From Candidatus Nitronauta litoralis (GTDB taxonomy: Bacteria > Nitrospinota > Nitrospinia > Nitrospinales > Nitrospinaceae): a DNA stretch of 64,000 nucleotides. The translations under genes were made by a program, and so were the position numbers. The notes below the pieces were generated by a model. It made no database searches. It had not been told where the DNA came from and was given only the letters and a program-made list of their open reading frames with translations. Position 1 is the first letter of the stretch, and each line of letters opens with the position of its first letter. Shown here in pieces: positions 33,301 through 61,885 of this stretch. The stretch lies in assembly GCA_015698285.1 (NCBI GenBank), contig CP048685.1:62001-126000 (forward strand). Reading direction: 5' to 3'.

Positions 33301-34630
33301 GGAAATAATTGCGTCGATCTGCCCAGAAAATGGCGCGGCCGCCATTGCCCGTGTTCATCGCATCGGCCCAGATACTGGCATCAGACCCGACAAAGGTATC
33401 GGTCGCATTTTGCACGGTGCCATTGCCCTGATAATCACCACCGAATAGAAGGGTTCCACCGCCTGCATCACCAGAGATGTCGATAAAACCATAGCCATCA
33501 AGAAATACTCGATCCCCTAGCACGTGGATAACGCCGCCCGTCTCATCTTCACCGTAACCCGACGCATCGAGTGTTCCGGTAACATTGACCGTTCCGGTCT
33601 CACCACCCATCAAATAAATTTCGCCGTTTTTTTCTGCAATGGATTGAGCCTGAATCAGGCCCGACATGTTGATCGCATGGTCCACCAGATCACGTGCCGC
33701 GTTCACACCCAGTGTCACGCGTCCGCCATCTGCAAAAATTTCCCCGCTATTGGTGACAAGTGATGACAGGGGCTGACCGTTCGGCCCTAACACCTGTTCG
33801 GTCACTTCCGAATCCAGGCCCAGGTTGACCAGTTGGTCGCCATATAAATCAAGCGTGAATGTCTTACCTGAATGAAGCGAGACGCGCCCAAGTTGTGCGT
33901 TGATGATGCCGCTGTTTTCAACACCCGGTGCAACAAAAGCGGCGAGTCCACCCTGTTTTACTGTGATGGTTCCCCGATTCACAACCGAGCTGTTGAAAGG
34001 TGAGGCGATGTTGAAGTTGTACCGTCCCGCCATGAAATCCTGGTTACTGATATCACTGGTCGTCGCCACCAGTCCGTTGACATCCACCTGCGAACCCTGC
34101 CCGAACAGGATCCCATTAGGGTTCACCAGGAACAATTGACCATTGGAGGTGAGCTTGCCAAAAATTTCCGATGCATTGCCACCCGTGACACGACTCAGGT
34201 TGACTGAATCTGCCGAGGGCATGTCGAAATTCACATGCTCGCCCGATTGAATGTTGAAATGGATCCAGTCGATAATCGCGCGTTCAGATTGTTGATTGAT
34301 ATTGAGAGAGCCGGAGCCGCCGGATTGAATTGAAGCCGTTCCCCCCTGAACGGTTCCCCCGGATGGGAGCGCATGAACTTGAACAGGAAAAAACGTGACT
34401 GCAAAAGACAGCAGAGCAACCCAAAGATGCGCGCAGGAAGCCGGACACAATTTAAGATGACTCAGGAGCGAGGTCTTTTTTAGCCTTGGATTTGTTTTGG
34501 GAGATCTGCGGTTTCTCATCTTTTTCTTATCGGTCAAAAAGCCCGAAAATGCAGGTGCCATAAGGGATATCCTCAAATCAAGGTAGCGTGTGATCTGACC
34601 CGTTTTAAATTTTTTTGCGTTTTGTCCCAT
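27383..34630 (-). CDS. Two-partner secretion exoprotein (filamentous hemagglutinin-like, TpsA)
   Basis: A 2415-residue secreted protein. An extended signal region of about 90 residues ends in VQVHA. It is followed by the TPS domain that TpsB recognises: GGTVQGGTASIQSGGSGSLN, AIIDWIHFNIQSGEHVNF and the hallmark NPNGILFGQGSQVDVNGLVA. The body is long beta-helix repeats rich in Gly, Asn and Thr, with near-duplicate units (for example FGNGTGRITVDNVNN and FGNGTGGITVNNVTN some 220 residues apart). The last 45 residues are very basic (KKKAVKKKRAKKEKK and onward). No CDI-type toxin module is visible, so it is probably an adhesin. AAGAAGGA lies nine bases before the ATG. It starts 24 bases after the TpsB gene. 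Confidence 0.92.
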   Translation of the reverse strand: MGQNAKKFKTGQITRYLDLRISLMAPAFSGFLTDKKKMRNRRSPKTNPRLKKTSLLSHLKLCPASCAHLWVALLSFAVTFFPVQVHALPSGGTVQGGTASIQSGGSGSLNINQQSERAIIDWIHFNIQSGEHVNFDMPSADSVNLSRVTGGNASEIFGKLTSNGQLFLVNPNGILFGQGSQVDVNGLVATTSDISNQDFMAGRYNFNIASPFNSSVVNRGTITVKQGGLAAFVAPGVENSGIINAQLGRVSLHSGKTFTLDLYGDQLVNLGLDSEVTEQVLGPNGQPLSSLVTNSGEIFADGGRVTLGVNAARDLVDHAINMSGLIQAQSIAEKNGEIYLMGGETGTVNVTGTLDASGYGEDETGGVIHVLGDRVFLDGYGFIDISGDAGGGTLLFGGDYQGNGTVQNATDTFVGSDASIWADAMNTGNGGRAIFWADRRNYFLGRVRARGGALSGDGGFVEVSGKETLFFDGQVDTTALNGETGTLLLDPDNITIKSGILGEPGDTSLPDIAASGGISFTVSELALESQSATTNINLLAEDNIFIEDLTTDNRISFRQTAGNRVSLIAKNGNIEFQDVNDEISTQGGDIILKAGGDMMLGHINAGTGTVSIFGKDEGIISLGAATGGLRIDNTELSNITAGNLIIGGTTDFEGRAGRIDVNGVSSGPMVTGTTILRAVNPVKGSFGGVLPAGSVNFGNNASNFLNSSLVVEALEGVTVNSDLTAGGSLSLDGDVNNINDPSTLNIPDSLNLAAGISLSSATGTLTLKGTTGGIIGAGALTLNGANGIVLDDSITTAGDLTFNDNVGMTGSANFINAGANKIIFQNNANRLEAGNGNNGLTLNSDLDFTGAGPFTINADVDGNRTGSFFLSGGKTINTMGQALDITASNMMLDGSLDSGGASTTIRSTNANGVDLALANNPGRFRLDDTELGRITAGSLSVDATVGTLTANGVDHTTHLANIANGVSLTGNTIVFEGADSSFNSLTVNGIANIKDGVDLSTAAGSMTFSNALTVDANANPVILGATGGNIFFNNSLNGGADVQVNSGAGTSTFGGSVGNTTALYSLTVTGNTTLNGSALNTSNGNVTFNNNVTLGNTVNINTGAGGGDVNFSGTIEGAAPGDQGLTVSTGTGTSTFQGNVGSTTSLSSVIVSGNSTINGDVTVQNGPVSFNNNLTLGGNSTISSGVGGINLNAVDGSQDLVLNSGGGGINLDGNIGFNTALTSLNVTGASTISGASINTANGDVTFNSGVTLDTGAVNINTGIGGGNIQIGAIDGAQDLALNSGTGTISLNGSVGDTTTLNSLSATGTTTIARSTLETNNGITFNGNVTANSGLDLNADADNTGVGTFDQQAGTLNTNGNALSITARDINLAGGTNSGAGITTIIASQNQGMSLGDANEVGDFRLSNPELGNFATTGGFVFGNGTGRITVDNVNNTLNNTVNGSTVLFNGGSSSFGLLTVNGPTTIAGVNITTNNMGMSFNNTLSLTNGSVQLSTGGGGGDLTLDGNVDGGQNLTLTSGTGNVIFGGSVGATTRLNSLTVNGTTTFSGASLLTNNGITFNGMVTASNASGFNLNAGGGTFTQQSGSLSTGGNALSITAQDFNLTGTLNSGGGTTTLIASQNQDMSLGDATGGLRLDNTELGQITAGGFVFGNGTGGITVNNVTNNAGTTLNGTMLTFNGMNSSFGSLIANGTTTIDGGVDIATTAGSMTFNNAVTANADASPVLLSATGGNIAFNNTLDGGANVQVNSGAGTTIFGGNIGSTTALDQLTVTGTSQMNGDTIRTNNGVTVSGNLTGNGNLTVNSDVDADGTGTFNQTAGVITNTNGDLNLTAADVTLNGTAVNVGAGKMTVVDSQSGTIGLGNANCGGACGLTLDGNELDKIVAWDLEIGTDTGGAVFVDGVTGAQSEEILLMDIHSGGMATFDNQSEFRNIILSADDIAVNGQLSVGDGVFGLRTSDGGALGVGTAVGDMTLDTTELAFLRAGFLSLFTTGNATLGNVTINSANITQEFDVWGRGLNLQGPLVSPINTTLRAFGAGQGIVLNDSGNFFGGSLNLFTGSGGNVSISNLFNNGQTVRLGDSNIGGAFSLSTPQAIQFVGGVDANGPVVVSSTSSGIGFDDGAFLNAGMGTLRLNSAGNLTLGQLVSDSSSLHAIHLEVGGAVIDGGDIGGEDIIAANGGLFARTTNGFGTEDNPIETRIHTLDLTNSTNGDIAFFETDSLHLANLTQGSNGDIFGSYNGMLSGTDNIEIIIGRFFIKDRASGLTLSQELGDTGKDRDALSIERTIDNIIDLEFASGSNRFDWDPAEGSPAGKIKDSGSPGGEHLGDLFGEPFPLVEVKEGNPEDGDLAHLENVWHWNDFNVENIKETDSREKKKAVKKKRAKKEKKTASKPRKRRQDKKDSGILSFFKKAGSILSFK

Positions 34631-34654: not shown

Positions 34655-36448
34655 TCAGTAACGCGCTGTCAGCCCAAAAAACAGGCGTGGGTCACGGTCA
34701 CCTTCTGAGGACACAATTTTGTCGATGGGAATGGCCAATTCCCCATAACCTGAAAGCCAGGGTGTGAACGTGGCACGCACCCCGGCCCCTGATGATTTCA
34801 GGTCTTCAAAGAAAACCATGCGATTGAACTCGTGCTTGTGAAATACCGCCCCGTAATCAAAAAAGAGATAAGGCTGCAGACTTTTTATCCATTTCTCATT
34901 GAAGGCGTGTGTGTACTGAACCTCTGCAATGAGAGACACACCCCCGTCTCCTGCAATTTCCGAGGAATCATAAGCTCTCAAGAAGCGAGGCCCTCCCGCT
35001 GTAAATTCCTGGGAAGCCAGCATGTCATCGAAACCCACCTGCCATGCAGTGGACAGCATTAAATTCCAACGCGGAGCCAATCTCTGGAAACGGGTCACCT
35101 CTCCCTCAAGGCGGGTGAAGTCTGTGCGACCGAATTGACGGGACAAAAATGCAGAACCGGTTTCACGAGCACCCAAGGCGTTCACCCCCTGAGTGATCCG
35201 GGCACTGATGATGTTGATGCCCTGCAACCGGTCAGCGAAATCAAATGTAAGTCCTGCTCGAAAATATCGGACACGATCCTCAGCAGTTGTGATCCCGACT
35301 AACTGGGTTTCAGAATTGATCATTCCAAATCCGAAGGATGCTGTGAGGTTACGCTCGCGCGTCCGCCAGATAGGATGGGACAACTGAAAACTGAAGGAGC
35401 TACTGTCGCCGTCCACCTGAAACACTTCGAGACCACCACCGGGTTGAGATGAAGCCAGGGACCCTGCGATGAACAGGCGTGTGCCTTCTATCGTGATGGG
35501 CAGATCGACAGAACCACTGAAGTAACGCAGCTCATCCGTCTGGGTTGTCAGGATTCCGTTGAGTTGCAGACGCTCATAAAGTTTGAGCATGCTGTTAACT
35601 GAAACACCTGCGTTGAATTGGATCGGCCCGTTAAATTGTGAACCCCGGTTATCGAAACCAACATGCGCATCGACCGGCTTGTGTTCCAATATGATGGTCA
35701 GTTGAGCCGTTCCGGGATTGGTATCGGAGGGTTTCAACACTGATCTGGCCCGCATACCGGGTTGATCATTGATGAGCAACAGGTTGCGTTCGAGAACTTT
35801 TGAGTTAAGGGGCCGCGATTGCAGGATGCGCTTTCGAAATAATTTGAGGACGCGAGTCGGCCCCTGGGGTTTTCCCTGAAAGGTCACTTTTTCAATATGT
35901 CCCTCAATGACCTTGAGACGCATTTCACCTTTGGCACCCACTTTTTGCGGTGGAACCAGAACCTGGCTCAGGATGTAGCCATCGTTTCGATATTTTGCAG
36001 TGAGCGCATCGGCAATATACTGGACCACACTCAGATTGACTGACCGATCAAGATAGCGTCGATAAACCTGACTCAATTCACCCCGCTTGTAGGCTGTGAC
36101 TCCCTCAAGTTTGATCCTGCGAAGAACGAACCGGACCTCAGGTTTCTTTTTCTTTTTTTGAAGGTTGGGTTTGCGGGGAACAGGAACCTGTTTCCTGGGC
36201 TGTGCTTTTGGGAGAGTGGGGCGTTCGAACCGTTTGTCAAAACGTTCAGGCTCCACCGTCCTCGGCAATATCTGGGAAAACGCAGCGCTTGGAATTAGTA
36301 TCAAAAATCCCAGAAGCAGAAATCCCGAAATCCAGCAAGATTTGGGAAAACGAGGCAATGGGTTTCTCAAGGAAAACAGCACGGGCGGGGAGACTCCGCA
36401 AACTTTGCGACGATTAATTTTGAATGGCATAAAGGAGGGGTCACGCAC
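34655..36448 (-). CDS. TpsB family outer-membrane transporter (ShlB/FhaC-like)
   Basis: About 597 residues. A signal peptide core (SGFLLLGFLILIPSAAFS) precedes a Pro/Lys-rich linker. Two POTRA-like domains come next: one around RRIKLEGVTAYKRGELSQVY, the other carrying EGHIEKVTFQGKPQG with the preceding NDGYILSQVLVPPQ. The C-terminal 380 residues are a 16-strand barrel, with FLRAYDSSEIAGDGG near the conserved motif that plugs into the pore (VRGY/F-type position) and a terminal strand ending RLFFGLTARY. It exports the TpsA encoded just downstream. The GTG at 36448 has GAGAGG close before it; an ATG six codons later (36430) is an alternative. Confidence 0.92.
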   Translation of the reverse strand: MRDPSFMPFKINRRKVCGVSPPVLFSLRNPLPRFPKSCWISGFLLLGFLILIPSAAFSQILPRTVEPERFDKRFERPTLPKAQPRKQVPVPRKPNLQKKKKKPEVRFVLRRIKLEGVTAYKRGELSQVYRRYLDRSVNLSVVQYIADALTAKYRNDGYILSQVLVPPQKVGAKGEMRLKVIEGHIEKVTFQGKPQGPTRVLKLFRKRILQSRPLNSKVLERNLLLINDQPGMRARSVLKPSDTNPGTAQLTIILEHKPVDAHVGFDNRGSQFNGPIQFNAGVSVNSMLKLYERLQLNGILTTQTDELRYFSGSVDLPITIEGTRLFIAGSLASSQPGGGLEVFQVDGDSSSFSFQLSHPIWRTRERNLTASFGFGMINSETQLVGITTAEDRVRYFRAGLTFDFADRLQGINIISARITQGVNALGARETGSAFLSRQFGRTDFTRLEGEVTRFQRLAPRWNLMLSTAWQVGFDDMLASQEFTAGGPRFLRAYDSSEIAGDGGVSLIAEVQYTHAFNEKWIKSLQPYLFFDYGAVFHKHEFNRMVFFEDLKSSGAGVRATFTPWLSGYGELAIPIDKIVSSEGDRDPRLFFGLTARY

Positions 36449-39606: not shown

Positions 39607-42600
39607 TTGCGAAGTGAGATTCCTCTACAAAGCAATCCGGACGGCATGGAAACCTCCCTGTCATCGCAAATAGAAGGGGAGCCCAAATCCCAGTCCGGAT
39701 GGGCCGATATGGGTCGAGGACTCTTCCTGGGCCTGATATTGCTATTGCTGGTTGTCCTCTTGTCCTGGTGGTCTTTGGAGCAAATTGAGGAAAAAACCAG
39801 GGATGATCTGGAAAGCACCCTCAATACAGTTCTAAACACGACGCACGAAGCCCTTCATATATGGGCAGGTGAACGAAAGGCCGATATTTCTGCAATTATC
39901 GACCAACCGCGATTGCAACAAATAGTTCAGGCGACAGTAAACTCCCGGAAAACCTCCCGCCAGGACCTTCTTTCCAGCCCTCAACTCAATGAATTACGCT
40001 CCCTCTTCCGTGAAACTTTAACCCGACAAGGTTACCTCGGGTTTGCTGTGATCAACCCCCATGGGGTGATCCTTGGAGCAACGGAAGATGCTCTGGTTGG
40101 TGGAAAGCACATCCTTTCCAGAAATGGTGATTATCTCAAGCGGGTTTTTGAAGGTGAAGTCCTGGTGAGTTTACCCATGGTATCTGAAGTCCTGCTCCCC
40201 AACCCTTTTGGGGAATATGAAAAAAATCAACCGACGATGTTTGTGGTTGGTCCTGTCCGGAATGTGGGAGAACAGGTTCTGGGTGCCCTGGCGCTCAGAA
40301 TTGATCCAAACAAGGATTTCACTCGCATTCCCCAATTGGGCCGCATGGGTTTATCAGGTGAAACCTATGGGTTTGGTGGTGACGGGAAACTGCTAACCGA
40401 GAGCCGCTTTGAACAACACCTGATCCAGACCGGTCTTTTAAGACCCGGGCAAGGTGCCATTCTTAATGTCGACATACGGGACCCGGGCGGAAGCCTGGTT
40501 GACGGCTTTCGCCCTACTGTTTCAAGAGAGAAACAACCCCTGACCCAAATGGCCGTAAGCGCTCTGGACCATGAAAGTGGTGCCAATATGGAAGGTTACC
40601 GGGATTACCGTGGAACACCGGTTGTTGGAGTGTGGCTGTGGGATTCTGAGCTGGGTCTGGGACTCACTACCGAAATGGATGTGGATGAAGCTTTCGAGTC
40701 TTTCCGGTCGACGCGGTTCCTGGTAGTCAATACTCTTGCGCTCATTCTTGTTTTTTTCCTGGCATTTTCTGTAGCACAAACTCGGGGACGCACCCGGGCT
40801 CTCCAGCTTGCTCACCAGATACGCGAACGTGAAAACCAGATAACGGCTGTTCTCGACAACGTGGTCGACGCCATTCTCACTATTGACTCCGAGGGATCGA
40901 TCGAATCGTTTAACAACGCGGCGGAGAGAATTTTTGGTTACAAGGACAACGAAGTGATTGGCAGCCAGTTTAAAATTCTCATTGCCCATCAGGATGACAA
41001 TTCAGAAATAGAATCTGACGAAGAGCCCTCGGATTCATTCACCGATTTTGACGCACTCTCCACCAGAAAAGAACTATCGGGTATCCGGGCGGATGGCTCT
41101 ATCTTTCCAATGGAGCTCAATTACAGCCAAGTGGCTTTCGAAAACCGGAGTCTCACAATCGTAATAGTCAGGGACATTAGCGAACGCATAAGGGCTGAAA
41201 AGGAAATCCAGGATGCCAAGGACGAATTGGAAAACCGGGTCCAAGAACGCACTTCGGACCTTGAAAACGCCCTAAAAGCCGTTGAAGCCGAAATCAGTAA
41301 ACGCCAGGCTTTTGAAAAAGAGCTGCAGGATTCCAATGAATTCCTGACAAGTATTCTGGGAAGCCCCACTGACATTTCCATTGTATCAACGGACCTGAAT
41401 GGCAAAATCCTTTACTGGAATCAGGGTGCTGAAAATTTACTAGGTTACAAGGCCGAAGAAATGGTCAATAAGGAAACAGTCAATATCCTCTATCCCGAAG
41501 ACGGGCCATCCCGTGACCTTGCTGCAGAAAAAGCCATGCAGATCGTAAAGACTAAACGAGGAACCAGCTTTGAAGTAGAAGAAATCACCCGTGAAGGAAA
41601 ACGAATCTGGGTGCAGTTGACCCTTTCCCCAAGGCTCAATCATCAGGAGGAAGTAATCGGTATTTTAGGGATCGGTGGCAACATCACCGGACTTAAACAT
41701 ACCGAGGCAACACTAAAAAAACAGTCCACTTATCTGCAAATGCTGGAAGACCTCGCCCACACCTCCAGTCGGGCAGCGAGCCATGATGAGGCTCTTCAAA
41801 CCTGCCTCGATCAGATCTGCACCGGGCTCGACTGGCCAATGGCAAATTTGTTTGTTCCGGCGGAAGATGCGTCAGGCGATTTACTCTGCTCCCCCATTCA
41901 CCACAACAGCGAAACAGCACTGTTACGGAACCTGAGGAAACTGACGGAAGTCACGCGTCTGCCTCGGGGTGAAGATTTGCCGGGTCGTGTTTTTCAAACA
42001 TCTGCACCCTACTGGACCAACCAGGTAGAAGAGGACATTTTACCTGTAAGAGCAAGGGAGGCACGGCGTGCTGAAATAAAAAGCGGATTCGCCTTTCCTA
42101 TCCTCATGGGCACTGAAGTTTTAGGTGTCCTGGAGTTTTTTTCACTTAAAGAGCACAAGCAGGATCAGGAGCTTTTAGAGTTTATGGCCCAGGTAGGCCA
42201 TCAAATGGGACGCATTTTAAATCGCAAACGTGCCGACCGCGTTTTGAAACGCATGCAAAACTTTCTTGGGCTATACAAAGGACTTGCGGAAGCTGCTTAT
42301 CGCTCGGTTTCGCTGGAAGAAGCCCTTCAAACTTCCATTGATCATCTTTGCAACCTCCATAACTGGTCGGTGGGCCATTTAATTAAACCCGACCTGGAGC
42401 ATCAGGAATCTCTGGTAAGCGCGGGTATCTGGCATTTTGACAATCCGGAATCCTCACAAAATTTTCGAAAAGTTTCTGAAGAAATGACGTTTTCGAAAGG
42501 GATTGGATTTCCAGGACTGGTCACTGAAAACCGCGCCCCGGTCTGGCTTAACGATCTGGGTGAAAAAAGCACCTTTGATCGCGCCAGTCTGGCCCGCGGC

Positions 42601-43932
42601 CTTGGGCTCGCCTCGGCCTGGGCCTTTCCCCTCATTTACCAGCAGAAGGTCGTGGGCATATTTGAATGTTATGGAAAAACTGCCGCCAAACCTGATAAAG
42701 ATTTCCTGGAGGACATGCAGGGCATCTGTGACCTGTTGGCCCAGTTGATTCACTTAAGACAACAGGAATCCGAGTCCAATCGGGACACCAACCGCCAGAG
42801 AACCCTTATCCAGCAAGCCCCGGTCGGCATCATGGCATTGAAAACCGATGGCACCATTGTTTCTTTCAACCCTGCCGCCGAATTCATTCTTGGATATGAA
42901 GCCGACGACATTTGTGGAGAAAATGTCTCAGGCATATTGCCAGAGGCCTATAGCGGGGGTTCTTCCTCATGGCTCATCCAGGCAGCAGGAACATCCGGCA
43001 CTTCGAACGCCTCCCTTCAAAGGACCACATTCGGGCTACGTAAAAATGGAACTCCGGTACAACTGAACATCGCCATCAATCACGCACACGGCGAAGACGA
43101 AGACCTTTTGATTGTGATCATGCACTATGTACCACAAGTCGACACCAGACAGGAGAGGCACCTTCCATCTGCACCAACCGCAAAACAGGATCAGCCGGTT
43201 TCCCCCGATCAACCTCTTGACCTTGCCCGCCCGCAAAAACGATTCCCACTGGCCGAGCAATTAACAGAGGTGGGTAACCAGACCATCACCACCGCGCACG
43301 ATTTCAATTCACCCGTGTTTGGCGTGCAACAGCTTGTGAAATCCTTACGCAGTATGGTTCAGCTGAGTGACCACCAGAAAGCGCTGTTCGATTTGCTCGA
43401 AAGAAAATGCCGCCGTATTGGGGAGGGGTTTAAGCAATTAAAGGAATTTTATCGGCCTCATTCAGGAATTGGCGGACCGCTGGATGTAAACGAAGCACTG
43501 GAAGACATCCTCACTCTTAATCAGAAAGTGTTTGAAAACCGACGCATCAAGATTGAAAAACATTACGCAGATAATCTACCCAAAATCGATGCGGTTTCTG
43601 ATCAAATCCATCAGGCATTACAAAATTTGATCCGGCATTCAGAAGAAAGTATTGCGGACCATACCGGAGAAATAATGATCGCAACAGAAGCGGAAGCAGA
43701 TTGGGTAAAAATTTATATTCTGGACAATGGAAACAGTATGGCTCCCGGGTATCTTGAATCATTATTTGATCCGGTATCGGGCAACTCCGCAAACGAGGAC
43801 AAGGAAACCAGCCTGCCTTTACAATATTCGATCAATATCATCAAAACCCACAGTGGCAATCTGGAAGTTTCTCGGCGTGAAGAAAAAGGAAACGTTTACA
43901 CCGTAACCCTTCCTGTTCTGGGCAATGGTTAG
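39607..43932 (+). CDS. Giant membrane PAS/GAF sensor with a degenerate histidine-kinase core
   Basis: About 1441 residues. A TTG at 39607, seven bases after AAGGAG, is the likely start; an ATG at 39646 is the alternative. Order: membrane helix (about residues 36-57), periplasmic Cache-like sensor (to about 365), second helix (about 371-390), PAS (TAVLDNVVDAILTIDSEG), coiled coil, second PAS (SIVSTDLNGKILYWNQGAE), two GAF domains (each opening with DEALQTCLDQIC or EEALQTSIDHLC), third PAS (APVGIMALKTDGTIVSFNPA), and a kinase-like end. The H-box reads TAHDFNSPVFGVQQL with its His at 43297. The ATP site is eroded: the N-box Asn is His (NLIRHS, 43636), G1 reads DNGNS in place of DxGxG (43723), and the G2 glycines are missing (SLPLQYSINI). 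It may therefore signal without autophosphorylation. The channel-like gene follows closely. Confidence 0.88.
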   Translation: MRSEIPLQSNPDGMETSLSSQIEGEPKSQSGWADMGRGLFLGLILLLLVVLLSWWSLEQIEEKTRDDLESTLNTVLNTTHEALHIWAGERKADISAIIDQPRLQQIVQATVNSRKTSRQDLLSSPQLNELRSLFRETLTRQGYLGFAVINPHGVILGATEDALVGGKHILSRNGDYLKRVFEGEVLVSLPMVSEVLLPNPFGEYEKNQPTMFVVGPVRNVGEQVLGALALRIDPNKDFTRIPQLGRMGLSGETYGFGGDGKLLTESRFEQHLIQTGLLRPGQGAILNVDIRDPGGSLVDGFRPTVSREKQPLTQMAVSALDHESGANMEGYRDYRGTPVVGVWLWDSELGLGLTTEMDVDEAFESFRSTRFLVVNTLALILVFFLAFSVAQTRGRTRALQLAHQIRERENQITAVLDNVVDAILTIDSEGSIESFNNAAERIFGYKDNEVIGSQFKILIAHQDDNSEIESDEEPSDSFTDFDALSTRKELSGIRADGSIFPMELNYSQVAFENRSLTIVIVRDISERIRAEKEIQDAKDELENRVQERTSDLENALKAVEAEISKRQAFEKELQDSNEFLTSILGSPTDISIVSTDLNGKILYWNQGAENLLGYKAEEMVNKETVNILYPEDGPSRDLAAEKAMQIVKTKRGTSFEVEEITREGKRIWVQLTLSPRLNHQEEVIGILGIGGNITGLKHTEATLKKQSTYLQMLEDLAHTSSRAASHDEALQTCLDQICTGLDWPMANLFVPAEDASGDLLCSPIHHNSETALLRNLRKLTEVTRLPRGEDLPGRVFQTSAPYWTNQVEEDILPVRAREARRAEIKSGFAFPILMGTEVLGVLEFFSLKEHKQDQELLEFMAQVGHQMGRILNRKRADRVLKRMQNFLGLYKGLAEAAYRSVSLEEALQTSIDHLCNLHNWSVGHLIKPDLEHQESLVSAGIWHFDNPESSQNFRKVSEEMTFSKGIGFPGLVTENRAPVWLNDLGEKSTFDRASLARGLGLASAWAFPLIYQQKVVGIFECYGKTAAKPDKDFLEDMQGICDLLAQLIHLRQQESESNRDTNRQRTLIQQAPVGIMALKTDGTIVSFNPAAEFILGYEADDICGENVSGILPEAYSGGSSSWLIQAAGTSGTSNASLQRTTFGLRKNGTPVQLNIAINHAHGEDEDLLIVIMHYVPQVDTRQERHLPSAPTAKQDQPVSPDQPLDLARPQKRFPLAEQLTEVGNQTITTAHDFNSPVFGVQQLVKSLRSMVQLSDHQKALFDLLERKCRRIGEGFKQLKEFYRPHSGIGGPLDVNEALEDILTLNQKVFENRRIKIEKHYADNLPKIDAVSDQIHQALQNLIRHSEESIADHTGEIMIATEAEADWVKIYILDNGNSMAPGYLESLFDPVSGNSANEDKETSLPLQYSINIIKTHSGNLEVSRREEKGNVYTVTLPVLGNG

Positions 43933-43940: not shown

Positions 43941-46163
43941 ATGATGAACCAGCCTCCGGACCTGAATGAAACATCCAGGAAACGGCTCAATGATCCACGA
44001 CAGGTTGAATTAGCCGACACTGGTAAAAAGAGATTTTCACCAAAACTCCTGTTCAGGGTTTTTTCAAGCCTTTCTGTTTTGGGCCTGTTATTGTCTTCCT
44101 CCCTTTGGTTCCAATATCTCAACAACAAAGAACAGGCAATCCAGGTTGCTAAAACCAATGCCAGCCTGATCACAAGTCATTCAGCAGAAGAAATTGACAC
44201 TTTGTTGACTGCTATCACTCCTTTGGCAGACAGCCTTGCCAATGAGTTAAGCGAAGGTGTTGTTGACCGGAAAGAGTTACTTCCCAGGTTGCGGAAGATT
44301 CTCGATAACAACACCGGTATTCGAGGTGCAGGAGTCGCCTATGCCCCCAATCAATACGATCCAGAAATTCGCCTTTTTGCTCCCATGTACATCCGTGAAG
44401 GCTCCAGCCTGAATTTCATGCAGGTTGAATCCCTTTACGATTACACTCTGCAGGAACACGACTGGTATTCAATTCCTTTCGCCAATCGTAGCCCAATCTG
44501 GACAGAGCCGGAACTGGACCCGGAGTCCGGAGATATCGTAGCCCGCTATGGAGTTCCATTTTACAAACCGGGAAACAACCGCCGTGGAGAACCCGCAGGG
44601 GTGGTGTTCCTTCAGTTACTTCTGAATCAGATAAAAAACCTGGTTGGGTCACTAGACCTTGGAAAAACCGGTTACGGATTTATCCTTTCAAAAAAAGGCC
44701 GCTTTCTTTCTCACCCAATCGAAAAATATGTCAAATCGGGACTGAGCCTTTTTGATCTTGCCGACCAGCAAAAGGATGGCACGTTGCGAATGGTCGGAGC
44801 CCAGGTCATCACTGGGAAAAGTGGATCCGTTGAACATGTCAACCCCGCTACGGGTCAGTTGTCGTGGATGTTTTTTGAACCTATACCATCGACAGGCTGG
44901 TCCATGGTGGTTGTCTTTGTGCGCGAGAAAATTGGTGCCAACACGCAGCAATTGAGGCAGCAGGAAATCTGGATCGCCATGAGCGCGGTGATCGTCCTGT
45001 CTTTATTGTCGGTCCTTCTCACTCGGGCTTATCTCGGCGGGTTGCGTCGCATCTGGACCCTGATGCTGACCATTTCGGTCCTGTTCATGTGCGGCATTGC
45101 ATTCATTTGGCATTTGACCATTCGCGATCCTATCAATGAAGAGAAACGTGTCGTCACAATTGTCGATCGTGCAGGTCTGGACAATTTTGTAACCTCTCTC
45201 AAAAAATCCATGGGAGACAGCACCGGGCATCCACCGGTTTTTATTCCCACCGGATTGTTCGTCCAGTCAATGGAGTTTGCGAATGCGAACAACACAATCC
45301 TCACGGGCTACCTCTGGCAAAAGTTCACACTGGGAGAGCATGACAATATCGAGCGTGGCTTTTTATTTCCTGAGTTGTCTTCTTCCGACGATGTTGATAT
45401 CGAGGAGCAGTTCCGGCGCAAGGATAGTGATACCGAGACAGTCCAATGGTATTTCCGCGTTGTGCTCAGGGAAAGGTTCGATTATTCGCATTACCCTTTT
45501 GACAAGGTAAATATCAGGATTCGGTTATGGTCAAAAGATTTTAATAATAATGTTATCCTTATACCAGATCTGGAAGCGTACACTCTGATCAACCCAACCT
45601 CTCTGCCTGGCCTGGAGAAAGATTTATTTCTTCCGGGATGGACTTTCCAGGAAAGCTATTTCGATTACAAGTACAACACCTTCACCACTGACTTTGGCAA
45701 AATCAGTCACCGCGGTCATGAAACTCTTCCAGAAATGTATTTTAATATCGTTTCGCGACGCAACTTTCTTGGCCCCTTCATTTCGAACCTGATCCCGATC
45801 ATTGTCGTTTCCTTCATGCTGTTCGGTCTCCTCATGATCGGAACAAAGCATTCTGAAAAAAGCAGTTGGCTCAATTTTAACGCCCAGGATATCCTCGCTT
45901 CCTGCGCCGCCTTGATATTCGTAATCATCCTCGCCCATATAGATCTGCGTGGCACTCTCGCGTCAGAAGGAATCCTGTATCTGGAGTACTTTTATTTTGT
46001 CATGTACATCGCTACCTTGATGGTCACCGTAAACGCCATCCTGTTTTCATGGGATATCCAGCTCAAATTGATCCAGTATGAAGACAATCTGATTCCAAAA
46101 CTGATGTTCTGGCCGCTCATCACAGGATGCCTGCTTATCCTGACTCTGGTCATTTTTTACTGA
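43941..46163 (+). CDS. Double-Cache sensor fused to a pentameric ligand-gated ion channel-like module
   Basis: About 740 residues. The start is one of adjacent GTG/ATG/ATG codons after AGAGGG; 43941 is used. Helix 1 (about 39-59) leads to a periplasmic double-Cache domain (70-335, with WYSIPFANRSPIWTEPELD and ARYGVPFYKP). Helices at about 344-362 and 372-392 flank an Arg-rich cytosolic turn. A periplasmic beta-rich domain (400-605) contains RFDYSHYPFDKVNIRIRLWS, which resembles the Pro-loop of Cys-loop-type receptors without the cysteines. SRRNFLGPFISNLIPIIVVS then looks like the start of M1, and M2 (650-667), M3 (678-704) and a C-terminal M4 (721-740) follow. This is the topology of prokaryotic pLGICs with extra N-terminal domains. 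The gene lies 8 bases after the sensor gene. Ligand and ion are unknown. Confidence 0.75.
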   Translation: MMNQPPDLNETSRKRLNDPRQVELADTGKKRFSPKLLFRVFSSLSVLGLLLSSSLWFQYLNNKEQAIQVAKTNASLITSHSAEEIDTLLTAITPLADSLANELSEGVVDRKELLPRLRKILDNNTGIRGAGVAYAPNQYDPEIRLFAPMYIREGSSLNFMQVESLYDYTLQEHDWYSIPFANRSPIWTEPELDPESGDIVARYGVPFYKPGNNRRGEPAGVVFLQLLLNQIKNLVGSLDLGKTGYGFILSKKGRFLSHPIEKYVKSGLSLFDLADQQKDGTLRMVGAQVITGKSGSVEHVNPATGQLSWMFFEPIPSTGWSMVVVFVREKIGANTQQLRQQEIWIAMSAVIVLSLLSVLLTRAYLGGLRRIWTLMLTISVLFMCGIAFIWHLTIRDPINEEKRVVTIVDRAGLDNFVTSLKKSMGDSTGHPPVFIPTGLFVQSMEFANANNTILTGYLWQKFTLGEHDNIERGFLFPELSSSDDVDIEEQFRRKDSDTETVQWYFRVVLRERFDYSHYPFDKVNIRIRLWSKDFNNNVILIPDLEAYTLINPTSLPGLEKDLFLPGWTFQESYFDYKYNTFTTDFGKISHRGHETLPEMYFNIVSRRNFLGPFISNLIPIIVVSFMLFGLLMIGTKHSEKSSWLNFNAQDILASCAALIFVIILAHIDLRGTLASEGILYLEYFYFVMYIATLMVTVNAILFSWDIQLKLIQYEDNLIPKLMFWPLITGCLLILTLVIFY

Positions 46164-46257: not shown

Positions 46258-46448
46258 ATGCCGGTAGGATGAGAGAGCTTTCTCTCGGTCTGAAAATCCA
46301 ACCGGAAGATTATGGAACCTCATTAACCACGTTCCAGAATCAATCGGATGGATCCCCCTGCCATGCTTTCTGCACGGATTCCTTAGGCCACCCGCTTCCT
46401 ACAATCCGGAAGCTCGCTCACCGTTATTTCCCTGAATTGAAGGAGACC

Positions 46449-46961
46449 ATGTTTTCCGACACCCCAAAACCACGGAACCAAGGATCAGCCAGGCAAAGTT
46501 TTCTTTTGCTCATGATCCTTTTTCTGGCCCTCATACTCAACGGATGCAATGTAGGGGCACGAACCATGGCCTTATTTGGTGGAGACTTGAACGTGCAGGT
46601 CGCTATCAGCGAACAAGCCAACCATAACCAACCGTTGATGGTGGATCTTGTGCTGGTCAACGATTCTGAGCTTCTCAAAAAATTGATGGAATTACCGGCG
46701 GATGAATGGTTTCAAAAGAGGGAACAATTTAAACGGGACTATCCGAAACGAACCGGGTTTGAATCCTGGGAATGGGAATGGACTCCAGGTCAAAAAGTTC
46801 CTGACCTGATCTTGCCGATTCGTGTCAAAGCGGAAGCTGGGTTAATTTTTGCTCGCTACTTTACAGAAGGCGATCACCGGGCCCGGTTTGATCCGCTAAA
46901 AAATATCTTCATTGAGTTTAACGAAGAAAGTTTCCAGGTCACCGTAACCCAGGGAACCTGA
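46449..46961 (+). CDS. tssJ: TssJ-like outer-membrane lipoprotein of the T6SS
   Basis: A 170-residue lipoprotein starting at the ATG with AGGAG three bases upstream. The signal peptide (SFLLLMILFLALILNG-C) ends in a lipobox. The mature part has LNVQVAISEQANHNQPLMVD, LVLVNDSELLKKLMELPADE and WFQKREQFKRDYP. This follows the TssJ pattern of a transthyretin-like sandwich in which 'V.L..L.D...F......FF' recurs. Similarity to classical TssJ is modest, and the call rests partly on position directly before tssK. TssJ anchors the TssLM envelope complex to the outer membrane. Confidence 0.7.
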   Translation: MFSDTPKPRNQGSARQSFLLLMILFLALILNGCNVGARTMALFGGDLNVQVAISEQANHNQPLMVDLVLVNDSELLKKLMELPADEWFQKREQFKRDYPKRTGFESWEWEWTPGQKVPDLILPIRVKAEAGLIFARYFTEGDHRARFDPLKNIFIEFNEESFQVTVTQGT

Positions 46962-47007
46962 ACAGTAACCTGTCTGTTATCAGGCGCAAATTTAAAGGAC
47001 CGGAATA

Positions 47008-48348
47008 ATGGTCGACGCACGCAGAATTCCATTTCCAATTCAGTGGCATGAGGGCATGATGCTGGCCCCCCAGCACTTCCAGCAATCGGCCTCACGTCAT
47101 GAGGAATTACTGCATTATCATTTAATGTCTTCCAACCCGTTTCATTGGGGAGTCCGTCGTTTAAAAATCGACCCTGTCCTGCTGGTCAGTGGTAAATTCC
47201 GGATCCTGGAGCTAGAGGCGATCCTGCCTGATGGCCTGATTGTAGAACATGGGCATTTAGACGACACATCGGCCCTCGAAATAGAGTTGGAAGAGTTTGC
47301 TGAAGACATCCGGACCACCCCCCTATTGATCCACCTCGCCCTTCCGGAAAAAAAAGTAGGGACCTCTTTCAAGGGCGACCTGGCACGCTTCGACTCCATT
47401 GAAGGGAGGCCCGTCTCCGATGAAAATACCGGAGACAACGAAATCCCCATACCCAGATTAAAACCCCGGCTCCTGCTTCTCGCCACAGACGAGCCACCGC
47501 AAAAATACGTGAGTTTTCCTCTCGCTGAAGTCACATACAAAAATGAGACATTTGCCCAAACAGACTACCTTCCCCCAAGCCTGGCCATCTCATTAGGTTC
47601 TCCATTGGGGGAATTGTGCCAACAGATTTCCCAGCGGCTGCGTGAAAAAGCCATTTACCTTTCGGAACAGGTGCAGTCGCCGTCGTCATCGGCGGGCGCA
47701 CCTATGATTCTCGAAACAAAAAACACCATTAAAAGCCTGGTGGCTAATCTACCTCAGTTCGAGGCTGTATTGAATACCGGCGTGTCACATCCCTTCCCAC
47801 TGTACGTTTCATTATGCGGGCTGGTTGGGGAAATGGCGGCTCTCGGTACTGGAATGGTGCCACCGGTTCTTCCTGCATACAATCACAACGACATTCGGTT
47901 TTCTTTCGATACAGCACGTGAATTCATTTTCCGCATGATCGAAGAAGGCATCAACGAAGCCTATACCGGTTACCCGTTTACCTGGGTCGACAACCTGTTT
48001 GCTCTGAACTTTTCCGAAGCCTGGATGAAACAAAAACACGTTTATCTGGGAGTACGCGGACCTTCCGGAATGGGAGAAAAAGACCTTGTTAGCTGGATAG
48101 AAAAAAGCTGGATTGGGACCGTCAATAAAATCCCTTCCATGAGGGAAAAACGCATACTGGGTCCAGAACGCAAACCCATCGAAGGCGACCGCGACATCAT
48201 CCCGGCGCGCGGAGTGGTGTTGTTTCAACTTACAGTCGATCCGGACTTTATTGAACCCGAACAACCCCTTCAGATTTTCAACACTGCAGACAAAACGGAT
48301 GCTGGACGTCCTATGGAAATTCTGCTCTACGTAAAAGCCAACACCTGA
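47008..48348 (+). CDS. tssK: T6SS baseplate subunit TssK
   Basis: A 446-residue cytosolic protein that links the baseplate to the TssLM membrane complex. The N-terminus IPFPIQWHEGMMLAPQHFQQ is the family signature. The middle (SNPFHWGVRRLKIDPVLLVS, LEAILPDGLIVEH) and the C-terminal domain (LQIFNTADKTDAGRPMEILLYVK) agree with TssK order and length. AAAGGACCGGAATA lies before the ATG. A small hairpin follows the stop, then the first vWA gene. Confidence 0.93.
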   Translation: MVDARRIPFPIQWHEGMMLAPQHFQQSASRHEELLHYHLMSSNPFHWGVRRLKIDPVLLVSGKFRILELEAILPDGLIVEHGHLDDTSALEIELEEFAEDIRTTPLLIHLALPEKKVGTSFKGDLARFDSIEGRPVSDENTGDNEIPIPRLKPRLLLLATDEPPQKYVSFPLAEVTYKNETFAQTDYLPPSLAISLGSPLGELCQQISQRLREKAIYLSEQVQSPSSSAGAPMILETKNTIKSLVANLPQFEAVLNTGVSHPFPLYVSLCGLVGEMAALGTGMVPPVLPAYNHNDIRFSFDTAREFIFRMIEEGINEAYTGYPFTWVDNLFALNFSEAWMKQKHVYLGVRGPSGMGEKDLVSWIEKSWIGTVNKIPSMREKRILGPERKPIEGDRDIIPARGVVLFQLTVDPDFIEPEQPLQIFNTADKTDAGRPMEILLYVKANT

Positions 48349-48372
48349 AGCCGCTCGTCCTAAGCGACGGCT
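48349..48372 (+). other. Hairpin directly after tssK
   Basis: AGCCG and TCG (48349-48357, one bulged C) can pair with CGA and CGGCT (48365-48372) around a 7-nt loop, one base after the tssK stop. No U-run follows, so it is unlikely to be a complete terminator. It could stabilise or process the mRNA between the tss genes and the signalling genes. Confidence 0.35.
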
Positions 48373-48519
48373 CATCTCAATGGTTCTCTAATGGGTATCT
48401 CAAAAATTACTTCTGGTCACGAGCCCGCTCCGATTTTTTGGTGGGGCAAGCTGCCGAAACGGAAACTTCCGAAATAATTGAGATCCCCTTATAAACCCCT
48501 CACCGCAAGGAGACTCCAC

Positions 48520-49224
48520 ATGAACCGACGACCCGGTGGCGAAATGGCCACCCGGCCACTGCATTTCATCTGGATAGCCGACTGCTCAGGTTCCATGGGA
48601 GTGGACGGTAAAATTCAGGCTCTCAACAATGCCATTCGTGAAGCCATCCCACACATGCAGGAAGTGGCCGATGAAAACCCGAATGCCCAGGTATTGGTAC
48701 GTGCCTTGCGTTTCAGTACTGGAGCCCAGTGGCACATCACCCAACCAACACCCATTGCCGATTTTAAATGGGAAAACCTCAATGCAGACGGCGTAACAGA
48801 CCTGGGTCAGGCGCTCAACATGGTGGCTGAGCAACTTCGCATTCCTCCCATGACAGACCGTGCCTTGCCTCCTGTTCTGGTTCTCATTTCAGATGGTCAA
48901 CCTACTGACGATTTCAATGCAGGATTGAAAACCCTGCTCCATGAACCCTGGGGCAAAAAGGCGGTAAGGGTCGCAATTGCCATCGGTGAAGATGCCGATC
49001 ACGAGGTATTGCAAAAGTTCATTGGAAATCCAGAGTTCCAACCTTTGCAGGCGAACAATCCAGAAGCGCTCAAAAATAAAATCAAATGGACCTCTACGGT
49101 CGTTTTGAAAGCCGCTTCGGCACCGACAAGCCAGACGGAAGACACCCAGACCCTGGGTAATGTTCCCATTCCCAAGGCACATGACTCGAATACTGAGGCT
49201 ATTTCCGCCGGAGACATCTGGTGA
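48520..49224 (+). CDS. TerY-like von Willebrand factor A domain protein (first triad)
   Basis: A 234-residue cytosolic protein starting at the ATG with AAGGAG seven bases upstream. The vWA domain has a complete metal site: ADCSGSMG (Asp21, Ser23, Ser25), the Thr in NADGVTDLGQA and the Asp in LISDGQPTDDF. The arrangement and length match TerY of tellurite-resistance gene clusters. TerY-type proteins form the 'TerY-P triad' with a PP2C phosphatase and a kinase, exactly the kinds of gene that follow. Its stop overlaps the PP2C start. A role as metal-dependent scaffold of the phospho-switch is inferred from that family. Confidence 0.88.
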   Translation: MNRRPGGEMATRPLHFIWIADCSGSMGVDGKIQALNNAIREAIPHMQEVADENPNAQVLVRALRFSTGAQWHITQPTPIADFKWENLNADGVTDLGQALNMVAEQLRIPPMTDRALPPVLVLISDGQPTDDFNAGLKTLLHEPWGKKAVRVAIAIGEDADHEVLQKFIGNPEFQPLQANNPEALKNKIKWTSTVVLKAASAPTSQTEDTQTLGNVPIPKAHDSNTEAISAGDIW

Positions 49225-50138
49225 AAACAGAACCTGACTCCGCCTGGCGGGCGTTCGGGAAAAGCGTTAGAGGTGCCTCGCATATCCGGGATAACAGGCC
49301 CAACCAGGATGCAATACTCTGGTCTTCAGGAGAAAGTGATGGGCTGCCTTTGGTCATGGCGTTATCAGACGGTCACGGCAGTCAACGCAGTTTCAGGAGC
49401 GAAACCGGTGCCGCATTTGCGGTGGATGCCATTTCCACCTGTCTGACTGACTTTGCCCGACAATTGTTCCCGAGTAGTCAATTCAAGGCTCTTGAACAGG
49501 ATGCCCGTAAAAACCTTCCACGCGAACTGGAATACCGATGGAAACGCACCGTTCTGGATCATCTGACAACAAACCAATTTTCAAACGAAGAAATTGAGAC
49601 CCTTTACGTCTATCAGGAAAAAAACGAGGGAGAACCCCCAATACTTAACCCTTTCCTGGCCTATGGGGCGACAGCGCTAGGTGTACTCGTCACTCAATCC
49701 TACCGGCTGTATTTACAGCTTGGTGATGGTGACATGCTCAACGTGTATTCCGACGGAAAAACAGAGCGACCTCTCCCCGATGACCCCAGGCTGATCGGTA
49801 ATGCCACAACGTCTCTATGCGCGCGCAAAGCGGCTCAGGATGTCCGATTGAGTATTCAATTCGGAGACAGACAGATTCCTGAATTGATACTTGTATCCAC
49901 AGATGGCTATGCGAATTCATTTAAAAATGATGAAGAGTTTTTAAGGGTCGGGCCGGATATTCTGGACATCATCCGCACCGACGGTCTTGATTATATCGAG
50001 CGTCACCTTGGCGACTGGCTTGAAGAAACCACGCAGGTTGGCAGCGGTGATGACATCACCCTCGGCATTCTGTCCAATTCAGTCGTAAACCTGCCTGAGG
50101 TCGAAACCCTTAAAACGACACAACTGTCTACAGAATAA
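49221..50138 (+). CDS. PP2C-type protein phosphatase (first triad)
   Basis: A 305-residue cytosolic metal-dependent Ser/Thr phosphatase. RDNRPNQDA (metal Asp30), ALSDGHGS (Asp50, Gly51), LQLGDGDMLN, LVSTDGYANS and GSGDDITLGIL (Asp277, Asp278) supply the usual PP2C metal ligands, so it should be active. The GTG start overlaps the vWA stop by four bases. It would reverse the action of the kinase encoded two genes on. The next gene starts directly after its stop codon. Confidence 0.92.
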   Translation: MKTEPDSAWRAFGKSVRGASHIRDNRPNQDAILWSSGESDGLPLVMALSDGHGSQRSFRSETGAAFAVDAISTCLTDFARQLFPSSQFKALEQDARKNLPRELEYRWKRTVLDHLTTNQFSNEEIETLYVYQEKNEGEPPILNPFLAYGATALGVLVTQSYRLYLQLGDGDMLNVYSDGKTERPLPDDPRLIGNATTSLCARKAAQDVRLSIQFGDRQIPELILVSTDGYANSFKNDEEFLRVGPDILDIIRTDGLDYIERHLGDWLEETTQVGSGDDITLGILSNSVVNLPEVETLKTTQLSTE

Positions 50139-52364
50139 ATGCACCCCCTGCCTCGACAACAGCTGAAATCCATTCTCGATGACTACGGAATCGGGCTCTG
50201 TGATGAACCCAAACGTATTGAAGGATTGCTCCGCGATTTTTGTGGGAAATACCGCCGGGAGATATTTGTCCTCGTTAGTGCCCTGAAAGAAGGTATCGCC
50301 TCAGATCTGCGCGCTTCTCACCCCAGTGCACCCCGGGACCTTCTTGTGATGAAACTGATTCAACGCTTGAAAGAAAACCTTGCACTTTCAGAACCTGCTG
50401 CACGTTGGGCGGTAGAAACCTGGGCACTTGCCCTAAACATTATCACTGCAGACGAATTAAAAATTGAAAAGGTTGAACGAGCTCCGGAACAATCCTCCCT
50501 CTTCCCGGAAACACCAACACCCGTCCCTGTTGAAACCGTCCATCCAACAGCAATTCCAGATCCGAAATTACCGAATCGTGTCACTGTATCCAAACGCGGG
50601 GATGCCGACTTTAAATCTATTAATGCCGCGTTGCAGGCTTGCGCAGAAGGTGGGAAGGTCAAAATCCTGCCTGGAATTTACAAGGAATCGGTCACACTCA
50701 ACAAATCGATAGAAGTTGTTGGTGAGGGTCCCTCACATGAGATTGTCCTCATCGGGCAGGGAAAACCAACGATCAAAATGGAGACTGGAAAAGCAGCGGT
50801 AAGGGGTTTGACGTTACGCGCTTCCGCTGCACAGTCCAACTCCCAGGAACCCACGGTAAACATCCCCCGGGGAGAACTGTTGATCGAAAACTGTGAAATC
50901 GTATCCGCTTCAGGACCTTGTGTTTCAATCGAAGGACCAGGCACTCAACCCACCATTAGACAATGTAAAATCCGCAATGGCCTGTTGCAGGGTATTGTTA
51001 TTTCCAAAGGAGGACAGGGGCGGTTCGAGGATTGCGAAATATCAGGGCACACCTCCACCACAATCCATATCAGGGAGCAAGCCAATCCCCTGTTCAGGAA
51101 CTGTAAAATCCATAGTGGAAAAGAAAACGGAATTGTTGTCACTGATGGTGGACTGGGCGTTTTTGAAGATTGTGACATTTCCAAAATGTCGAAAGCAGCA
51201 GTCGTCATTCAGGATGAAGGGGACCCTGTACTCAGACGCTGTGTCATTCATCACGGGCGTGGCGGCGTACTCGTTTATCAGAATGGAAAAGGTGTACTAG
51301 AAGAATGCGACCTGCATGACAACCACTGTGCGGGTATTGAAATTTTCAATCAGGGTGATCCTCGTCTGACAGCTTGCCGCATCCGCGACGGTAAAACAGC
51401 GGGAGTTTTTATTTATAAAGAAGGACGCGGAGTACTCCGTGCCTGCGATATCAGTGGAAATCAGGCTGCGGGTGTCGCAATAAAACAACAAGCGGACCCC
51501 ACCCTGGTCAATTGCACGATCCACCACAACAAGGAAAGCGGATTGATCGTATTTGAGCAGGGCCTTGGACGCCTTGAAGAATGCGACATTTTTGAAAACG
51601 GTCTTGCTGGAATTGAGCTTAAAGAACAGGCCCAGCCGCAACTGGTCCAATGCAAAATCCACGACGGAAATGGAGGCGTTTTCATCTACGACCAGGCAAA
51701 AGGTTCGTTCAAACAATGCGAAATCTTCGCCAATCGATTTTCCGGTGTGGAAATCAAAAAACACAGTGACCCCGAATTCATAGAATGCCGGATTCACGGT
51801 GGTAAAAGTGGCGGAGTCTTTATCTATAAAAATGGAGCCGGTCAATTCACCTCCTGCCGCATTTTTGCCAACGCTGCTCCAGGATTAACAGTAAAACAAA
51901 GCGGTGATCCCCGCTTGAAAGACTGCCAGATCTATGGGAACCATGACTGCGGAATTGCTGTGTACGAAGGTGGCAGAGGAAAATTCAAACATTGCGAAGT
52001 ATTCGACAACCACCTTTCCGGAACCGAAATAAAACAAGAAGGGTTGCCTTTCTTTTCATATTGCACACTTCGCAACAACCAGCGTCACGGTGTACATCTT
52101 CTGGAAGGCGGGAACGGTAAATTCCGCCATTGCGAAATTTCCCGAAATGATGGCTGTGGAGTTGAAGTTGCCACTCAGGCTAATGCAGAGTTCGAACACT
52201 GCGGAATCGTTCTGAATAAAAGGAAAGGTGTAATCGCTGCAAAATACTCAAACGGTTTTTTCGACAACTGCACCCTGACAGGAAATGTCAAAGGAGCCTG
52301 GGGATTAGATCTTAAAAGCCGTGTCCGCTGGATGAAACCTGAAAAGGCGGCGGACCCGAAATGA
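50139..52364 (+). CDS. Right-handed beta-helix repeat protein of the T6SS signalling block
   Basis: A 741-residue protein without signal peptide. Residues 1-115 form a helical module (RIEGLLRDFCGKYRREIFVL, then LSEPAARWAVETWALAL) that I have seen at the N-terminus of assorted bacterial signalling proteins but cannot name. A Pro-rich linker leads to residues 145-735, a parallel beta-helix opened by a pectate-lyase-like motif (DADFKSINAALQACAEGGKV, ILPGIYKES). It then has a 46-residue double-turn repeat: 'C.I..N...GI.I...GDP.L..C.I..G...GV.IY..G.G'. No catalytic residues are evident. It starts right after the PP2C stop and overlaps the kinase start by four bases, which places it inside the triad as a likely binding scaffold or substrate. 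Confidence 0.88.
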   Translation: MHPLPRQQLKSILDDYGIGLCDEPKRIEGLLRDFCGKYRREIFVLVSALKEGIASDLRASHPSAPRDLLVMKLIQRLKENLALSEPAARWAVETWALALNIITADELKIEKVERAPEQSSLFPETPTPVPVETVHPTAIPDPKLPNRVTVSKRGDADFKSINAALQACAEGGKVKILPGIYKESVTLNKSIEVVGEGPSHEIVLIGQGKPTIKMETGKAAVRGLTLRASAAQSNSQEPTVNIPRGELLIENCEIVSASGPCVSIEGPGTQPTIRQCKIRNGLLQGIVISKGGQGRFEDCEISGHTSTTIHIREQANPLFRNCKIHSGKENGIVVTDGGLGVFEDCDISKMSKAAVVIQDEGDPVLRRCVIHHGRGGVLVYQNGKGVLEECDLHDNHCAGIEIFNQGDPRLTACRIRDGKTAGVFIYKEGRGVLRACDISGNQAAGVAIKQQADPTLVNCTIHHNKESGLIVFEQGLGRLEECDIFENGLAGIELKEQAQPQLVQCKIHDGNGGVFIYDQAKGSFKQCEIFANRFSGVEIKKHSDPEFIECRIHGGKSGGVFIYKNGAGQFTSCRIFANAAPGLTVKQSGDPRLKDCQIYGNHDCGIAVYEGGRGKFKHCEVFDNHLSGTEIKQEGLPFFSYCTLRNNQRHGVHLLEGGNGKFRHCEISRNDGCGVEVATQANAEFEHCGIVLNKRKGVIAAKYSNGFFDNCTLTGNVKGAWGLDLKSRVRWMKPEKAADPK

Positions 52365-53680: not shown

Positions 53681-53761
53681 TTTGCCTTTGTTTGTTTTTC
53701 CCTCCTGGTTAAATTAAACTGGTGACGTTTCAACCGATCCGTTTAATTCCAGGCTTCCGAC

Positions 53762-54847: not shown

Positions 54848-54855
54848 CTCCTTTT

Positions 54856-56614: not shown

Positions 56615-56691
56615 GGTTTTTCGCCTGCAACCGGTATTTTGCCAATATGCTATAAATCCTTTTATTTCAATCGAATATTCAAAAAAGTTTA

Positions 56692-56719
56692 TTGAAATTT
56701 TAATTAATTATGGTATAAA
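56692..56719 (+). promoter_or_regulatory. Possible internal promoter for tssL-tssM-tssA
   Basis: TTGAAA (56692-56697) and TATAAA (56714-56719) are 16 bases apart within a markedly A+T-rich 100-bp gap, about 58 bases before the tssL start. This would let the structural genes be expressed apart from the signalling genes. Confidence 0.45.
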
Positions 56720-56776
56720 TAGTTCCAACCGATAATAAATGTAATAGGCAAAAAACTCTTAAGCCAAGGCATTCCC

Positions 56777-57640: not shown

Positions 57641-57662
57641 TTAGATATCAGGCGAACATAAA

Positions 57663-61850: not shown

Positions 61851-61885
61851 GGCGAAAAGAAAATTTGAAAAGACACGGAAAAACT

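Follow-up and report, generated by a model that had tools for sequence, protein, structure and literature searches.

We find that the multi-sensor, histidine kinase-like protein encoded in the window analysed here (64 kb of DNA spanning 62001-126000 in the single 3.92-Mb contig of a marine bacterium of the nitrite-oxidiser type) has a HATPase_c fold whose catalytic residues have been lost, that these losses are common to its orthologue and that the fold is under selection, which makes the protein a pseudo-histidine kinase. Its gene directly precedes that of a pentameric ligand-gated ion channel (pLGIC), and it is the pair of sensor and channel, rather than the kinase, that appears to be conserved, since all four channels found in the class have a sensor partner. 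The loss of kinase function that the original prediction suggested is well supported at the level of sequence by the losses shared with the orthologue, their bias toward the nucleotide site and the purifying selection on the domain.

The sensor has the three PAS and two GAF domains first noticed by eye, and all of these stretches pass the Pfam cut-offs (Table 1). The match to HATPase_c spans 107 of the 111 profile positions. The Cache-like sensor of the original prediction is at most hinted at: the N-terminal membrane region is homologous across five proteins, but the sensor protein itself has no listed dCache match, two of its relatives reach 19.0 and 20.4 bits with the dCache model, whose cut-off is 45, and a profile of the N-terminal sensor found no relative among solved structures, the one match having an E value of 0.45.

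Table 1. Features of the sensor and channel genes (positions in the window) and members of the His-less paralogue family (positions in their own loci)
Feature	Position	Strand	Basis or remark
Multi-sensor pseudo-histidine kinase gene, 1446 aa	39592..43932	+	Start uncertain: TTG 39592, TTG 39607 or ATG 39646
N-terminal membrane/Cache-like region, aa about 36-400	39697..40791	+	Putative periplasmic sensor flanked by two hydrophobic stretches
PAS 1, aa about 405-535	40804..41196	+	Pfam
PAS 2, aa about 590-700	41359..41691	+	Pfam
GAF 1, aa about 725-880	41764..42231	+	Pfam
GAF 2, aa about 905-1055	42304..42756	+	Pfam
PAS 3, aa about 1075-1180	42814..43131	+	Third PAS stretch; approximate borders, drawn by eye
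HisKA/DHp-like region, aa about 1210-1292	43219..43467	+	18.4 bits, under cut-off 26.9
H-box His1236, retained (AHDFNSPV)	43297..43299	+	Alignment
Ser1240 at H+4	43309..43311	+	Alignment; Asn in 91% of 43 related cores
Degenerate HATPase_c domain, aa 1336-1442	43597..43917	+	Pfam 41.7 bits, cut-off 26.4
N-box His1349 in place of Asn (NLIRHSEES)	43636..43638	+	Alignment; Asn in 43/43 related cores
G1 DNGNS, second Gly lost, Asp1378 retained	43723..43737	+	Alignment; orthologue DNSNS
F-box/ATP-lid FFTTK lost, aa 1395-1399	43774..43788	+	Alignment
G2 ETSLPL instead of GTGLGL, aa 1405-1410	43804..43821	+	Alignment; stretch ETSLPLQ
Cache-fused pLGIC gene, 741 aa	43938..46163	+	5 bp downstream of sensor gene
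dCache_1 domain of channel, aa 64-326	44127..44915	+	Pfam 59.3 bits
pLGIC extracellular domain and four-helix channel domain, aa about 430-740	45225..46157	+	AF2, GLIC match
His-less family member, own genome	L186:2305-7107		Contig C1, about 3166.8-3171.6 kb
His-less family member	L187:1348-6147		
His-less family member	L188:2274-6815		

What had been read from the DNA about the kinase core, namely that the H-box His is present, that the N-box Asn is replaced by His, that G1 reads DNGNS and that the G2 glycines are absent, was borne out at each of the four boxes, the codons in question being those of His1236 and His1349 and the stretches that start at 43723 and 43804. Beyond this, the lid motif FFTTK is lost as well and the Asn at H+4 has become Ser. 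The boxes can be taken as correctly aligned because HATPase_c is recognised at well above its cut-off, and the core aligns through all boxes with the PDB kinase ZraS (E 4.2e-19) and via the same boxes with other kinases in the PDB search. We considered misaligned motifs as the cause of the substitutions and rejected this, since the Pfam, PDB and multiple alignments concur.

In a set of 43 aligned cores from the same genome and its relatives in the order, 37 columns were at least 80% conserved, and the sensor core retains 21 of them, including His1236, Pro1241, Arg1275, Gln1341, Asn1345, Asp1378, Phe1392, Pro1394, Leu1408, Leu1410 and Gly1422. Among the lost residues are the N-box Asn and the adjoining Ala (now Ser), the second glycine of G1, the glycines of G2, the Phe-Thr-Thr-Lys of the lid and the Asn at H+4, and a few conserved columns are also lost outside the nucleotide site (1223, 1424, 1428, 1431 and 1436). 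The losses thus concentrate on the N box, G1, the lid and G2, and the structural residues mostly stay. The H+4 position is important for phosphatase activity. Because of the residues lost, the kinase and phosphatase functions are probably both impaired, and the kinase part of the sensor is probably no longer able to use ATP.

Within its own genome the core stands alone. When all 55 HATPase_c hits were aligned together with the orthologue from a genome of the same genus (G002), the N-box Asn was kept in 53 and one copy, broken by a stop, was gapped there, making the sensor core the sole substitution of this residue; two other cores (L169 and L170) have an altered G1 with N box and G2 intact. 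The orthologue, 84% identical to the sensor protein, answers the question of whether homologues share the substitutions: it has the same N-box His and the same ETSLPLQYS, and one additional G1 glycine is gone (DNSNS). A close core was found only in G002 among the 64 genomes of the order, the remaining matches being at most 38% identical and retaining the N-box Asn in all those that were aligned, so that the degenerate core is carried by two sequences only. In an IQ-TREE phylogeny from which 11 of 45 rows had been removed beforehand, the sensor core falls among Nitrospinota kinases, where its branch is long and its neighbours are poorly supported.

Despite these losses, the domain is under strong purifying selection and can be regarded as a maintained pseudo-histidine kinase. 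Compared with G002, the degenerate HATPase has a dN of 0.068, a dS of 1.51 and a dN/dS of 0.045 (Nei-Gojobori), compared with 0.048 in the N-terminal sensor region and 0.026 in the channel domain, all values being rough with synonymous sites close to saturation. The ATP-intact HATPase of a paralogue (L186/L187) has a dN of 0.096 in the same species pair and so evolves no slower than the degenerate one. The low dN/dS and the higher dN of the paralogue together show that the dead domain is kept by selection.

The neighbouring gene appears to encode a true pLGIC by its predicted fold, with an extracellular beta-sandwich and four transmembrane helices. An AF2 model of the 397 C-terminal residues, built on an 80-sequence alignment, had a mean pLDDT of 84.7 and a pTM of 0.77; the model from the single sequence reached a pLDDT of 42. 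The best Foldseek match of the model in the PDB was GLIC (E 1.1e-12; TM 0.60 by query and 0.75 by target), and VIA-align gave a Z of 20.4 and an rmsd of 2.5 across 274 residues to the same structure. GLIC was also matched by sequence with the 80-sequence profile (E 1.9e-5); a 5-sequence profile found no relative among solved structures. The motif YPFD, which we take to be the Pro-loop, is invariant across the alignment of five sequences, and its Pro176 and Asp178 are conserved at 90% or more in the 80-sequence alignment, which consists of 78 stretches that passed a coverage filter, the channel studied here and one more (L046), with short or split channel hits excluded. The search of the genome collection for such channels returned 79 loci in bacteria and archaea. 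Three of the channel genes (L083:5337-9140, L127 and L129:6867-10238) are oversized, at 1267 and 1123 aa versus the usual 700, and probably have extra domains fused to the pLGIC core.

The original prediction had named the channel-like gene as a natural partner of the sensor, and this holds as a gene pairing: the neighbour has the pLGIC fold, and the pair recurs in four genomes, two of them without a kinase core. In the 5-bp gap before the channel gene a ribosome-site-like sequence, AGAGAGGG, overlaps the sensor stop codon. When the entire channel gene was searched for in 100 genomes, 77 of them in the class, matches extending into the channel domain were found in four of the 77 (G000, G002, G052 and G054) and in one genome outside the class (G078), all other hits being to the Cache part only. 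In all four class genomes a sensor gene lies directly upstream on the same strand, at a distance of 5 bp in the genome studied here, 12 bp in G002 and 17 bp in both G052 and G054, and all four channels fall into a single clade (support 0.996). The sensors of G052 and G054, which belong to another family, are only 860 and 859 aa long; they consist of the N-terminal region followed by a single PAS domain and two GAF domains, and end after the second of these. Neither HisKA nor HATPase_c was detected in them by Pfam, even at an E value of 0.1, and tblastn found no kinase core beside them, a lone 21-residue match at the far end of L044 (E 0.30) being noise. Since these two genomes keep sensor and channel without the core, the kinase core is younger or less stable than the pair, and could reflect either a gain in one family or a loss from the other.

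Outside this group, the channel as such does not appear to need the sensor. No sensor was found within the 19.9 kb examined around the G078 channel, and in the public collection a sensor lies upstream at three of the 79 channel loci (L052, L054 and L055, which are the genomes G002, G052 and G054), with none seen outside Nitrospinaceae at the other 76, about nine of which begin at the channel gene and so offer no upstream side to judge. At two loci (L085 and L090), matches to other kinases or to PAS lie several kilobases from the channel. The upstream neighbours at 10 of the 79 loci include no sensor kinase: they comprise a TIR-WD40 protein, two ABC transporters, a Mg-chelatase-like protein, an epimerase, a P-type ATPase, a weak Cache match and one match to the Thymosin model, and two had no match. 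At one Microcystis locus, 22 bp separate the gene of a TIR and WD40 protein (L056:728-4912) from the Cache-pLGIC gene downstream of it.

With a dead kinase part next to a channel, the signal may pass by contact and not by phosphate transfer. We give about an even chance to the reading that the sensor, a non-enzymatic subunit with several sensory domains, modulates the channel as a pseudo-histidine kinase acting by contact, through a coupling that we infer. The protein would be membrane-anchored, with a putative extracytoplasmic domain, three PAS domains, two GAF domains and a catalytically dead DHp-CA core. Cues sensed by the PAS, GAF and periplasmic domains would alter the conformation of the sensor dimer, and this change would cause the channel to be opened, closed, assembled or placed, with the channel reading a second periplasmic cue through its own Cache domain. 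The DHp-CA core would be an add-on, a module for protein interaction and not the output, because the core-less sensors of the relatives would do the same job. The retained H-box His and G1 Asp are not needed by a pure scaffold and count against this contact model, and the adjacency of sensor and channel can mean co-regulation alone. As had been predicted, no response regulator is encoded nearby, none of the 64 Response_reg hits of the genome falling within the window, which is the arrangement expected of an orphan two-component kinase. The further claim that this absence fits a role outside phosphorelay carries little weight, because the genome has 64 such matches.

The kept His could be phosphorylated in trans by another kinase. 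In a two-component pseudokinase of this kind, the sensor would form a heterodimer with an active histidine kinase and feed an orphan response regulator elsewhere, either by having its His phosphorylated in trans or by steering the partner kinase, and the channel would be merely co-transcribed. The H-box His and Pro are kept in both orthologues, the genome offers dozens of histidine kinases besides its receiver matches, and in Corynebacterium glutamicum a ChrS with a broken CA domain heterodimerises with HrrS, according to the text available of PMC9491836. However, the core-less sensors of G052 and G054 still adjoin the channel, and neither a kinase nor a regulator is adjacent to the sensor gene, and we consider this explanation rather unlikely. 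By analogy with DivL, the flow of information might instead be reversed, so that the dead DHp-CA core would bind a phosphorylated response regulator as input and tune the channel or another kinase. A conserved fold with lost catalysis agrees with this, as does the precedent of DivL, which binds TNP-ATP weakly and shows neither autokinase nor phosphatase activity (PMC4211667), but the vicinity has no dedicated regulator and the proposal appears improbable.

That the protein is a weak yet real kinase, with unusual residues permitting nucleotide binding and slow autophosphorylation, would agree with the HATPase fold being kept overall, along with Asp1378 in G1 and the His of the H box. It is very unlikely, given the joint loss of the lid motif, the N-box Asn, one glycine of G1 and both of G2, and given that the orthologue shows a further loss of a G1 glycine. 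A decaying pseudogene or vestigial domain would account for the lost catalytic residues and for the missing core in relatives, but a reading frame that stays open over 1446 codons in both species, and the strong purifying selection on the degenerate domain, make this hardly credible, and we rejected decay on the latter ground. Equally, there is little to recommend the sensor as regulator of the type VI secretion (T6SS) cluster downstream, in which genes for TssK, VWA, PP2C, a kinase-like protein, TssL, TssM, TssA and TssB follow from 47008 on: the same-genus genome G001 has the same T6SS order without the pair upstream and without a channel match, G054 carries the pair but gives no TssK match, and in G052 the pair and TssK are on separate contigs. 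Because of these arrangements the sensor-channel pair does not appear to be tied to the T6SS, and we assign this role a very small probability.

A 230-aa open reading frame at 46269 sits between the channel gene and the T6SS genes, and the stretch 46269-63802 holds the T6SS cluster, where the genes for TssK, TssL, TssM, TssA and TssB are interspersed with ones for VWA, PP2C phosphatase, Ser/Thr-kinase-like and beta-helix proteins. The gene order is common to G002 and, as far as fetched, to G001, where the upstream neighbourhood of the cluster differs; TssK is present in 8 of the 64 genomes of the order. The kinase-like protein of the cluster (52361-53680) matches Pkinase from profile position 109 only (aa 128-236), which raises the possibility of a divergent or degenerate N-lobe here as well. 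Elsewhere in the window, a gene for a 2415-aa protein (27383-34630) adjoins one for an outer-membrane protein that by eye is ShlB/FhaC-like (34655-36448, minus strand), which suggests a two-partner secretion pair.

The genome also encodes what could be called the mirror image of this pseudokinase, a multi-PAS family of 1500-1600 aa in which the H-box His is lost (AQQINNP or VDLVNNP) and the ATP site is intact. Its member in the genome studied here, of 1600 aa, is the best-scoring other core of the genome and has Gln at the position of the H-box His (AQQINNP), as has the core in G002; in the members from G003, G005 and G008, AHE is replaced by VDL. We can only speculate that the dead core of the sensor pairs with this His-less core as a natural split kinase. 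The family groups with the sensor core in FastTree (0.774), but the IQ-TREE values are 42/68 on a very long branch, and its presence in G003, G005 and G008, where the channel search gave no match, argues against an obligate complementation.

The role that bacterial relatives of the nicotinic and GABA receptors play in their own cells is largely open, and the conserved pairing with an intracellular sensor that was reduced from a histidine kinase offers a concrete partner and a testable input. It also shows that one lineage can dismantle a kinase core that another lacks, with sensor and channel remaining paired in both. Pseudo-histidine kinases and Cache-pLGICs are each known; as a pair we found no report, and the titles and abstract beginnings listed in searches of open-licence PMC papers describe no pairing of a pLGIC with a histidine kinase or with a PAS/GAF protein. 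NifL combines a PAS sensor with a kinase-like core and influences its partner, the activator NifA, through contact instead of phosphate transfer, with nucleotide binding retained. The NCBIfam model for NifL matches the sensor protein at 67.6 bits, far under its cut-off of 242.45.

On the channel side, Cache-fused prokaryotic channels have been known for two decades, and the ART-LGIC of Tasneem et al. has an N-terminal Cache domain and a pLGIC core like the channel gene here; in Rhodopseudomonas a stand-alone Cache gene lies beside the channel, and the available portion of that paper describes no histidine kinase partner, the term "histidine kinase" having no occurrence (PMC549065). DeCLIC is likewise a pLGIC with an extra periplasmic N-terminal module, one that influences gating, but this module consists of jelly-roll lobes and not of a Cache domain, and no partner sensor is described in the accessible text (PMC9897478). 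In the text at hand of a pLGIC inventory, the terms "histidine kinase" and "operon" have no mentions (PMC4795631). On the sensor side, the ChrS variant of C. glutamicum has also lost its CA function through a lesion of the CA domain, but is a laboratory frameshift that acts via heterodimers with HrrS (PMC9491836, as far as available), in contrast to the natural, selected and substituted CA domain here. The likeness to DivL of Caulobacter is in the PAS-bearing sensor with a complete DHp-CA fold, which in DivL is without kinase or phosphatase activity (PMC4211667, in the part accessible). DivL, however, has Tyr550 at the place of the phospho-acceptor, where the present sensor retains its His, having lost the ATP site; and the targets of DivL are CckA and DivK, whereas the neighbour of the present sensor is an ion channel.
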